A stretch of DNA of 64,000 nucleotides, from contig NC_134681.1 in NCBI RefSeq assembly GCF_024713945.1, positions 124,001 through 188,000 of the forward strand, read 5' to 3'. The notes below the pieces were generated by a model. It worked only from the letters and a program-made list of their open reading frames with translations. It did no database searches and was not told where the DNA came from. The translations under genes were made by a program, and so were the position numbers. The stretch comes from Dermatophagoides farinae (Eukaryota; Arthropoda; Arachnida; Sarcoptiformes; Pyroglyphidae). Positions 46,401 to 52,400 of the stretch are shown here, piece after piece; within the stretch, counting starts at the first letter, position 1; every line of letters starts with the position of its first letter.

Positions 46401-49400
46401 CAGCAGAACGAATGTTGTAGAATCAGATGGATTCCGTTAAAAAAAAAATTTTTTTTCCCAAATTCATTGGTACAAATTTTCTCACATTTTCAATTTGTTG
46501 ACATTGTTGTTTCAACACGAAGAAAAAAGCAAATAAAAAATCTAAAATAAATAAAAAATATTCATTGCAATACAATGTTGTGATGGGTGACAATTTACAA
46601 TTAAAAGGAAGAAAAAAAATGTGCAAAGAATTCACATACATACAAACACAAATGAAATCGAAGAATAAAGAATACAAAGATTGTTAAATTATTATTTGTT
46701 CATTTTTTTAGTCACTTTTTTTTAATTTCAAAAAACAACAACAACCAAATCAATAATTGATTTGCAATTTTTTAAGAAAGAAATCCATCAATCAATTTGA
46801 ATCGATTCGATTCAATGTGAAATGATGAAACAACAACAACAACAACGACAACAAATTCTATATATCAAATTTGGTTTCGATGAATTTTTTTTTCTTTTTA
46901 CTCGCTTACGGCTGAAAGAATTCGCTGAATTGCAAATATTGATTATTGTAAATTCTTATAATCATCATCATCATCAGCAATCGAGACAAGATGGCCATCA
47001 ACATTCGATGTTCGTTCTTTTCCTTTTTAATATAATTTTATTCCTTTCTTTTTCTTTTTCATTACATTTTTTCTTGAGAAAAACATGCTGACGGCAATTT
47101 TGTGATACGGATTCTAATGATGATTATTATGATGATGATGATGATAGATGAATCTTGGATCGATTCTGCTGTTGGTGTTTTTTTTTTGTTTTTTTCTGCT
47201 ACCATTGCCTGATTTGTTATTATTCAATCAGAAAAAATTTTACTTATTAACGAAATAAATTCACTTATTAATTGGAATGTAGTGTTGCTTCCGATTTCGT
47301 TTTTTTTTCATCATTCTATGTCTATGTGTTTGTTGATTTGTATATATAAATTCCAAATTATTTGTTTGTTTGTTCTTACCGCAATCATTATCATCATCAT
47401 CATCGTCGTAGCCGCCTTAGTCATATTACAATTAGCAAAACCAATTGAATCATCACCACGCTCGAATACATAATACAAATAAAAATTCAATTTGTTTGCA
47501 ATTTGTATTTGCAAATACAATAAAACAGCAACAACGATAGCAAAATAATAATGAAAATTGCCAATACAATCTAATATTGATGATATACAATTCAATAATC
47601 ATGTACATCATGTATGGATATTGCACTGTATTTGACAAAACTGAAGAAAAAAATTCACAAATAAAATTTGTATTTGTCGTCAGCATAAAATTTATCTTTC
47701 TTTTGCTTTATTTTTCCCCATTTTTCAACACAAACCATGTAAATACACACACACACATACACACATCAAATAGATGAATAAATTGGATACCTGAATCTTG
47801 AAATGTAAGATTTCTTTTCTTCTGTGTCGCTCTCTTTTTCTTTTTTTTTCTTCAGTATTTTATTGAATGAATTTAATCAATACGGTACAAAACGATCATC
47901 GGTAGAAGAGAATCATCAATTTGGATCGAAATTCGAATTTTGAACAACAAAAAAAAATTGACCATACGTAAGCAGAATCGATATAAACGATCATCATCAT
48001 CATCAATGATAGAAAAAAAAGAAAGAAAATGGAAGGAAAGAATGAACAAATCTTGCAGAGAGAGAGAGAGAGAATAATGGTAGTGAGAAAATATTAGTAG
48101 TAGTGTAGACCAAACATATATACAAGTGCAGAAAAAAAACCTGTCAAGTATATTTCGACAATTTTCGATTGATTCGAGAATATAAAAAAAACACACACAC
48201 ACACACATATTGTAACGAATGGAATTTCGTTTTTTTTCTAGCCCGTATGAAAAAAAATAATTGATTATCGCTATATTATTTGAATTGAAGAAACGAATTT
48301 TATGAAACATTCAGAATGATATCCTGTATGTGTGTGTGTGTGTGTGTGTGTGTGTGTGTGTTGCAATCAGATTCAATCCAAAGTTTATTTGAATTGACCT
48401 TACAAGAAATAATAATAATAATAATAAAAACTTGATGATGGAACTGTTATTTGTCGTTTATCGTCGTATAAATATCATAGTCATCGATGTTGCTTGCCCA
48501 CATTGGATCCAATACAGACACACACACACACACACATATGTCGCATATATTATTTGACACTATATTTACCACCACATCATTGACAAGAAGAATCGTTCAT
48601 TTTTTTTTCTTTTTTTTTCATTTCCATCTATTTTCACTTTTTCTTTACATACAAATTTATTGTAAAAAAAACCAAAAAAAAAGAAAAAAAATTGATGAGA
48701 AATAGAAAAAAATCGTCACCCAAAAGAAGAAGTAAAAAGTAAAAAAAAAAAATTACCGCGAGAAATTCCATTTATTATCATAATGATCCGACATTAATAT
48801 CATTGAAGAAGAAAAAAAAAATGAACGACGATATCATTTGCTTCTATTCCTAGCTGAAACATATACACACACACTTTGTACTTGTCTTTATTTCTATGTC
48901 CATTTCATCATAAAGTCAGAAAAAAACTAGTAAAAAACAAAAAAAAAAAAAAAAATAAAGAGAATATTATTAATGTAATAGTTGTTGCTGCTCACACACA
49001 AATATATATATATATATTGAAATCAAAATATTCTATAATGTAATGGTTAATGGCGTGTGGCGCCATCGACGGCGAGTTTTGAATCAACACGTGAAGTGTT
49101 GTATTGTTTAATTATTAAGTTGCTTTTTGATCGTCAATGAATAAAGACGTTTATTTGTAAAATTGAAATAAAGCTTGTTCCTTTATTGTGTGATTTGAAT
49201 GATTATTTCATTACATGGTGGCAGAGGTGGGATTCGAACCCACGCCCCCGGAGAGACTGGTGAACTGTTAAATGTTCATCGGGATCAAATCGCGCCGACT
49301 GAGATCGAGGGCGTTCTATCGAAAATTCGAAAGCGTGGCCGCCCTCGTAAGGGGGTGTAATGGTTAATGGCGTGTGGCGCCATCGACGGCGAGTTTTGAA

Positions 49401-52400
49401 TCAACACGTGAAGTGTTGTATTGTTTAATTATTAAGTTGCTTTTTGATCGTCAATGAATAAAGACGTTTATTTGTAAAATTGAAATAAAGCTTGTTCCTT
49501 TATTGTGTGATTTGAATGATTATTTCATTACAATAACTATTATTATAGATTCTTTTTCTCTTTTTTTTCTCTCTCCCTATTTGCTGATTGTTGCCAATAA
49601 TAATGATGATTTTTGTTTTTATTCTCTATTCTTTATTTATCCTATCCATCATTTTACTAATTGAATATAGGTCAAAATAGTACACATTGTGGATCAATCA
49701 ATAAAGATCGTGGTATACAACGTTTAGAGGCAATGTTATTTGCAATAGATAAGATCAATCGTGATCAAACATTATTGGCCAATATTAAATTAGGTGCAAT
49801 CATTTTAGATACCTGTTCTTCCGATACATATGCATTAAATCAATCATTAGAATTTATTCGTGCATCTATTAATACTGTTGAAGCATCAGCATTTGAATGT
49901 ATTGATGGATCAACACCGAGACCTAAATATGATTGGAAACATATCAGTGGCGTTGTTGGTGGATCATATAGTGAGGTATGTAGAATCAAAAAAAAAAAAA
50001 AAAACAAACACGACAAAAACAATAAAATAAAAGAATATAAGAATATTCTCAATACAGTGAGAGAAGAATTTATTAAATTTTTTTATATTCATGTTAAAAT
50101 CAGAATATACACACACTTCAACATTTATTCGTGACCTTTTCATATGGATATGATCGATAGTTTTTTTTCAATAGTTGTTAGACAAAACTTTTCAAAACAC
50201 TCATCATTGTGTTTTATAATGTTACATTCAAGCAATAGTTATTGTCCACTGTTTACAGATAATAATTTAGTTTTATTTATCACAAAAAAATTATTGAAAA
50301 TCAAAAAGAAAAAAACTTTTTTTTTTCGAAAATAAAACCGGAAACAAAAAGCCATTGAATAGAATCGAGTATCTCTAAAAATAGCGGAAGTCCAACAACA
50401 ACGACAACGTCCAATTCCAAAGAAGCCGTAGGGAAATTTTTTTGTTGTTGCTGAAAAAGTTTCAACGATAAAAAATACCTTGGAAATTCTTCATCTTAAA
50501 ATGATGGAAATGATGTCATTTGCATTCATATTGAAATGAAAAAATAAAAATAAAATAAAAAATGAAAAATTTTCATTTGAATTCAAATTTTATTTGTGTT
50601 TGTACATGTTAACACTTGAGTGCGTGTGTGTGTGTGTGTGTGTAGGAAATCTACAAAAATTTCATTTTTCTTTTCTTTTTTTTTTGGTCGATGATACTTC
50701 CAACAACAACAACAACAGCAATAAAAAAAATCGTTTTTATCATTATGATAACCAATTGATGATGATGACGATGATAGCTGCATTTAATTCCATATATTTA
50801 TTTAGTTGGAAAAAAAAGAAAATTTTTTTATCTAGCCCGAAAAATTGATTCTTCCTAAACGGTATATCATCGAGAATAAAAAAAAAACATTTCCTCTCTT
50901 AAAACCCAGGTTCGGCTATATTTTATTTTCATCATCATCATCATCATCATTATTATTATAACATCACGCAAATTGCATCATCATACCAAACATATCCAAA
51001 CATTTCAATGTTTCAGTGTTAGTTCCAGTTTAACACAGGCAAACATTGAACAGGTATTCAAAAGAAGAAAAAAGAAAAAAAAATCAAATTGAAACTATAA
51101 AAGATTGAATGAACAAAAAAAAAAAAAAAAGAAAAAAGGTAGAAATGAATTCGAATTTAAATATTTGATCATCATCATTTGCATGAATATGAATATAAAA
51201 AATAAAAATGAGGAACTAAATCAAGAAATTTTTTTTTTGTCTCCATTCAATTCAGAAAAAAAAGAAAGAATTTTATTTTTAGATTGAAATACAAATAGAT
51301 AGATGTAAAATGTAAACTAAATGATGACGACAAAATCAAAAGTTTTGAAATTGAATGAAAAAAAAAAATGAAAACCGGAGATTTGTGATGATGAGAATAA
51401 AAAAAAATCAATACAAGAATCCAGAATTTTTGTGTTATATTTTCTTGAAACACACACACACACACACATAAAAAAAATTCACAATTAATGAGATATAAGA
51501 TGTGTCTAATGATTCAAGTGTGTGTGTGTATGGCTAAAATATTCCATAAAAATTCCATAAATTCTATAATTTCATGTTCCCTAATACGCCAAGAATTCGA
51601 ATGGATTTTTGTTTTTTTTTCTCATTTTTTTTTCATTGTTGTCACCAGCAAAAAAAAAGCAGACAACAACAAAAAACAACCAGAGAAAATGGAAAAAATT
51701 GTTTTTTTTCAGTTGACAGCTTTTACAATTGATGATGAACGATGTCCGAAAGCAAAAAAAAAAATCTTGAATTTTGAAAAAAATGAAAACAGTAGAGCAA
51801 AGAAAAAAAATGTTACTCATAGATGAAGAAAACAAAATTGAAAAGGTGGCGCCCGTCATATTATCTTAGATACGATGATGGTAACGAAAAATAAAAAATA
51901 AAAAAAAAATGAATAAACTTATACCACCACCACCACACATATGTCACATATCGTATCGCGTATAGCATGTACAAATGTTTTGAACAAAAACGAAAAAAAA
52001 CGATAAACAAAATCGTTTTTTTTTCTCGAAAATTATTGAAAACAACAACAAGAACAGGTTGAATGGAAAACGAGAAAAAAAATCAGGTTGATGTCGATCT
52101 CAGAGAAAAAAAAACAAACAAACACCCGATGTTGAAATATTTTTCATTCACCATTTTCTTGTTTTGATATATTCATAATAATCTTATTTATTATTTTATC
52201 CAAAAAAAATGTTCAACCAGATTTGTTATTGCAAAGTTTTTTTTCTTTCAAATTCAAATATTTTGCCACAATGCACATATTTTTGGATATTCATGAACAT
52301 AATGCTGACATGGATATTGCTGACATATTAATCGATATTGATTGATTGAAATAATATTAATTAAATTATATCATGTGTTTTTTCTTATTCCAGGTTTCAC

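Follow-up and report, generated by a model that had tools for sequence, protein, structure and literature searches.

A TRIM-like 494-bp element in the mite Dermatophagoides farinae, probably born in a single round of faulty reverse transcription

The element described here occupies 494 bp on the + strand (49039..49532) of a 64,000-nucleotide stretch of Dermatophagoides farinae DNA (contig NC_134681.1, positions 124,001 to 188,000; hereafter the window). Its new feature is a primer-binding site (PBS) that is a 47-nt half-tRNA complement, joined to the last 98 internal nucleotides of its parent by a 5-nt microhomology. It is probably the fossil of a miniature element's birth in one faulty reverse-transcription round, a one-step origin to which 36 extra tRNA nucleotides in its PBS point. 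The explanation that we favor, and consider likely, is that a plus-strand strong-stop DNA over-copied its primer tRNA to nucleotide 38 and was mis-joined to an incomplete minus strand.

Anatomy and parentage of the 494-bp element

The element, which has a 140-nt interior, and its flanks are composed as follows.

49035..49038, no strand: target-site duplication ATAA, left copy
49039..49215, + strand: 5' LTR of 177 bp, 0 differences from the 3' LTR
49216..49262, + strand: complement of the 3' 47 nt of tRNA-Leu(AAG), from nucleotide 38 to the CCA end
49216..49226, + strand: PBS common to the parents, the first 11 nt of the tRNA complement
49258..49262, + strand: junction microhomology TGGTG, common to the tRNA complement and the 3' internal region of the parent
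49258..49355, + strand: 98 nt of the 3' end of the parent open frame, beyond the integrase core, with 100% identity to each of the three full-length copies
49349..49355, + strand: purine tract AAGGGGG, the same in the three parents
49356..49532, + strand: 3' LTR of 177 bp, 0 differences from the 5' LTR
49533..49536, no strand: target-site duplication ATAA, right copy

A preliminary description had seen here a very young TRIM-type element, and its account of the parts is borne out: the two LTRs are identical, their TG...CA ends read TGTAAT...TTACA, the purine tract and 4-bp target repeat are in place, and the longest stop-free stretch in six frames is 65 codons, leaving no evident coding capacity. 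The PBS that it reported is real, but its extent was understated, as the tRNA complement runs 36 nt beyond the 11 nt of the parents. A length below about 1 kb with short LTRs, the lack of coding capacity, a PBS (49216-49226, extended to 49262) and purine tract (49349-49355) beside the LTRs, and a target-site duplication on both sides are all features of TRIMs, and we regard the element as TRIM-like in build, not as a demonstrated TRIM family. Its LTRs also contain AATAAA motifs.

The genome (62,435,336 bases in 22 contigs, all match counts being lower bounds) yielded at least 13 matches to the 494-bp sequence, six of them in three full-length copies on C7 (4103 bp), C6 (4065 bp) and C2 (4262 bp), with 4-bp target repeats TAAC, AATT and ATAT. 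The LTR pairs within these copies show 0, 0 and 2 mismatches, the last with 2 gap columns. The C2 copy holds a single open frame of 1290 codons, and the C7 copy three separate sense frames of 739, 145 and 294 codons. Taken in four pieces, the C2 frame matches the Pfam families zf-CCHC, RVT_1, RT_RNaseH, Integrase_H2C2 and rve, in that order; reverse transcriptase (RT) lies ahead of integrase, which is the Ty3/Gypsy order. Given these CCHC, RT, RNase H and integrase domains, LTRs 90-91% identical to those of the parents and a 3' internal segment identical over 98 nt, the 494-bp element is, on sequence grounds, a derivative of this Ty3/Gypsy family with identified full-length copies. An internal 1.5-kb probe of the parent finds the same three copies and three short fragments, and an LTR query gives at least 12 matches: two in the 494-bp element, one lone LTR on C1, six in the full-length copies and three diverged relatives (L013, L014 and L017; 76-80% identity), of which the flanks alone were inspected.

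The 494-bp form itself was found once (at least one copy in 62.4 Mb), and the search revealed no dispersed multi-copy family moved in trans; the recently mobile TRIM family of the preliminary description is thus unsupported. That description had proposed searching the genome with the LTR, which recovered full-length relatives and the lone C1 LTR but no other 494-bp copy, and had named a genome without other copies as an argument against a recent mobile family, which is largely the situation found. Its reading of identical LTRs as recent mobility holds for a young insertion and not for a mobile family, since reverse transcription makes both LTRs identical. As for its active autonomous partner, the genome does contain a related Gypsy family with full-length copies, its activity being possible rather than established.

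When the LTR of the 494-bp element is compared with that of the C7 copy, 11 of 12 mismatches fall beyond nucleotide 84 (binomial P 0.005), while the 98-nt interior is identical. This clustering implies that the sequence copied directly was either a recombinant or a variant missing from the sample, and the mosaic LTR beside an identical interior implies that the template pool held two R-U5 variants. The whole-genome LTR search found no full-length copy bearing the second variant.

On the + strand, an exon matching PF01094 appears to begin about 140 bp downstream of the element, which probably sits in an intron. Two open stretches on the + strand of the window (49661-53062) match the ANF_receptor ligand-binding region, with the element just upstream in the same orientation; we take the gene to be a metabotropic glutamate receptor.

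The tRNA copy and its gene

The complement of tRNA-Leu(AAG) in the 494-bp element is perfect over 47 nt, compared with 11 nt in each of the three parents. All three align to the 494-bp query at 1-188 and 220-494 only, and the tRNA complement, which each of them lacks, fills the gap. Integration of a full-length copy followed by internal deletion would leave ends that match the parents, as these do, but deletion cannot supply the 36 nt of tRNA complement missing from the parents, and the junction contradicts this history unless an unseen parent held the segment; we find it scarcely credible.

The corresponding tRNA-Leu(AAG) gene, recovered by ARAGORN with introns allowed (L016 276-473; C2:15675-15872), has a 113-nt intron and is followed immediately by a genomic CCA and then a T run. 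Its 3' exon with CCA is 47 nt long, the same as the copy in the element, and the element base after the 47-nt match agrees neither with G37 nor with the intron. Our nucleotide numbers presume the canonical intron site 37/38: ARAGORN, by its own count, labels the intron 38-39, which we took as canonical 37/38 since the loop reads TTAAGG before the intron and C after it. With bacterial defaults ARAGORN detected no tRNA either in the window or in nine other loci, with introns allowed it found none in L015, and a search of four loci with Rfam (E<=1) gave 12 matches, every one under the gathering score. Folded as DNA, the 47-nt segment has no special structure (z = 0.06). The copy shows no misincorporation opposite A58, which implies that A58 was unmethylated or cleanly bypassed.

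The coincidence with the exon raises the alternative that the same faulty transfer was primed by a 3' tRNA half, or by the cleaved 3' exon of the pre-tRNA, with RT running off the 5' end at nucleotide 38. We think this unlikely. The copy is exactly the 3' exon plus CCA, but free 3' exons bearing CCA should not persist for long, and a further copy, on C1, stops 2 nt earlier. Priming by half-tRNAs is reported for copia, whereas Ty5, as described in the same source, primes from an internal end cleaved in the anticodon loop and not from the CCA end (PMC5371799). Copying from the 3' exon of the tRNA gene is a formal possibility, as CCA follows the gene in the genome.

Extended tRNA complements at two further loci

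The first 26 nt of the tRNA segment, with up to 3 mismatches allowed, occur at four places in the genome, all exact (control 0): the tRNA gene, the 494-bp element, and one locus each on C1 and C9. The C9 element (L018 3284-5115; C9:1309083-1310914) is 1832 bp long and has two identical LTRs of 133 bp with AGT...ACT ends, of a family different from that of the 494-bp element (family 2); this family appears Gypsy-like by its integrase domains, and its class we otherwise infer. The order of its parts is LTR, 47-nt tRNA complement, inverted copy, 47-nt spacer and a sense copy reaching the 3' LTR. The arms of the inversion are 159 nt long and 100% identical, their source region lies directly upstream of the integrase zinc-binding domain, and the joint shows a 2-nt overlap (CA) when set against a relative on C2. 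The flanks are compatible with a target repeat, ambiguous within an AAT run. This looks like a snap-back reverse-transcription product which still integrated, and its different LTR family and own fold-back inversion imply that the over-copying events were independent.

The C1 locus (L012 1854-2075; C1:2271853-2272074) carries a lone LTR and 45 nt of tRNA complement, followed by unrelated DNA. Its LTR differs from that of the 494-bp element at 4 of 177 positions and has an intact U3 end, and the locus has neither a second LTR nor a target repeat, as expected for inserted strong-stop DNA. It looks like plus-strand strong-stop DNA that had reached a dead end and was integrated at one end only.

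The tRNA complement is thus 47 nt in the 494-bp element, 47 nt in C9 and 45 nt in C1, compared with normal PBS matches of 11, 11 and 11 nt in the parents (family 1) and of 10, 10 and 13 nt in family 2 (L054 10, L056 10 and L055 13 nt). The remaining 10 of the 14 family-2 LTRs, which are 3' LTRs or belong to solo or broken copies, match the tRNA over 0 or 1 nt and were left out of the PBS comparison. Separately, three family-2-like LTRs near the end of C6 (C6:9264, 10524 and 18190), with equal identity and the same flanks, represent a local duplication. At all three loci, in two LTR families, the tRNA copy stops at nucleotides 38-40, although microhomology makes the exact end ambiguous (43-38 in the 494-bp element, 40-38 in C9). 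If ends were uniform over tRNA positions 19-85, three random ends would fall in a 3-nt window with a chance of 0.004, and all in 45-47 with a chance of 8e-5.

A genome scan for the half-tRNA PBS pattern gave 80 exact matches, against 23 for a reversed-pattern control. A T-stem check on all 80 places, comprising 76 distinct 40-mers, passed three: the tRNA-Leu sequence (four places, one being the gene), one place on the small contig C17 and one on C10. The C17 place overlaps an Rfam tRNA match, and the C10 place is AT-rich and chance-like. This exact-pattern scan, which is blind to copies whose T-loop is mutated or whose first base differs, gave no further half-tRNA PBS. Among 63 of 2453 candidates scored, tRNA matches on C11-C21 were compact (71-82 bp) and many on C1-C10 spanned 95-187 bp, as if intron-bearing; some of the small contigs (C11-C21) may not be mite nuclear DNA.

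These loci bear on two further alternatives. The first, an ordinary TRIM family, supposes that the RNA of a mobile, non-autonomous lineage had the 47-nt tRNA segment to begin with and was moved by a Gypsy partner, with C1 as a broken member. C1 and the 494-bp element do have an R-U5 variant (4/177 differences) and a tRNA copy in common, and PbTRIM of ants likewise combines a Leu-tRNA PBS with 4-bp repeats (PMC3532108). However, no second 494-bp copy was found in the genome search, a break within 2 nt of the junction, as in C1, has a chance of about 1.6%, and the C9 case belongs to another LTR family; we judge this reading distinctly improbable. An assembly artefact has to be considered given that a single assembly is the sole source of data, but the clean ATAA repeat, the C9 flank that is compatible with a target repeat though ambiguous, and the separateness of the three loci make it very improbable.

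Proposed origin and comparison with known systems

In the over-copying model, a Ty3/Gypsy element primed by tRNA-Leu(AAG) would make plus-strand strong-stop DNA (U3-R-U5-PBS), and RT would continue along the attached tRNA, past the PBS and A58, to nucleotide 38, where N1-methyl-G37 would most likely stop it. The over-long 3' end could not complete normal second-strand transfer, because the parental PBS pairs with 11 nt of the tRNA only, and would instead use TGGTG to pair with a minus strand completed only over the last 98 internal nucleotides and the LTR. Completion would yield a 494-bp two-LTR molecule, which integrase would insert with a 4-bp target repeat. The composition of the element, its junctions and target repeat, its parents and the two further loci are read directly from the sequence; we infer the order of these events, template switching by RT rather than end-joining, and the block at m1G37.

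By analogy, m1G37 is expected on mite tRNA-Leu(AAG): it is described in tRNAs for codons with C in first position, CAN excepted, in an account framed on Salmonella that calls the mechanism common to eukaryotes (PMC13191261). In HIV-1, minor plus-strand strong-stop products end at the modified nucleotide 37 and are inactive in transfer (PMC13191261), and RT sometimes copies the tRNA up to A37 (PMC1785368). Ty3 is reported to make dead-end plus-strand strong-stop DNA and to have a PBS that is not tRNA-inherited (PMC5371799). In Ty3, however, strong-stop DNA is said to stop 12 nt into the tRNA (PMC5371799), an argument that Gypsy elements in general do not over-extend routinely, and m1A58 is reported on tRNA-Leu(AAG) in Vero cells (PMC13191261); these two points slightly lower our confidence in the over-copying model. 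The number of loci, only three, the C1 end, 2 nt short, and the ambiguity of the exact tRNA ends also count against it, as do the genomic CCA behind the tRNA gene and the clustered LTR differences from the parents.

The value of the 494-bp element is that its birth junction is readable, with primer tRNA, copying stop point and microhomology all identifiable. It is evidence, from chromosomal DNA, that RT is able to read through A58 and halt ahead of nucleotide 37, which in the papers cited is known from HIV-1 biochemistry, and the rule that the tRNA copy ends at nucleotides 38-40 is testable in other genomes. More speculatively, and with considerable doubt on our part, strong-stop DNA of these Gypsy-type elements may regularly reach the m1G37 block through the 3' half of tRNA-Leu(AAG), normally as a dead end, with rescue by microhomology giving a TRIM-like element in one replication cycle. 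The 47-nt over-extension sequence so gained would allow correct transfer of over-long strands made later and could favor miniatures over their parents.

Like plant TRIMs and PbTRIM of the red harvester ant, the 494-bp element is short and non-coding, with two LTRs, a PBS and a purine tract, and PbTRIM also has a Leu-tRNA PBS, of about 15 nt, and 4-bp repeats (PMC3532108). It differs from them in having been found as a single copy, in its PBS lengthened to a 47-nt half-tRNA complement and in having an identified parent family. OsajRetroS10 likewise comes from a larger LTR element, OsajLTRA10, in its case by internal deletion (PMC4717578), whereas the joint in the 494-bp element contains sequence of the primer tRNA, an indication of the replication step. 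Helenus, a TRIM of animals with tRNA-related sequence and 4-bp repeats, carries its tRNA-like part within the LTRs, likely as a Pol III promoter (PMC10886601). In the 494-bp element the tRNA sequence is antisense, outside the LTRs and at the PBS, and tRNA scans of the window and L001 listed none inside an LTR.

The closest likeness in mechanism is to over-extended HIV-1 plus-strand strong-stop DNA, in which the tRNA is copied beyond A58 with a stop at the modified nucleotide 37 (PMC13191261, PMC1785368), and unintegrated HIV-1 2-LTR junctions can likewise bear tRNA-primer or PBS sequence (PMC5618025). One study reported no extra tRNA sequence in the integrated proviruses that it examined (PMC1785368), and the literature covered, with most subscription journals outside its scope, described no integrated LTR element whose tRNA copy reaches nucleotide 37/38. 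The HIV-1 cases were seen in vitro or in unintegrated DNA, whereas the mite cases are chromosomal copies, in two LTR families.
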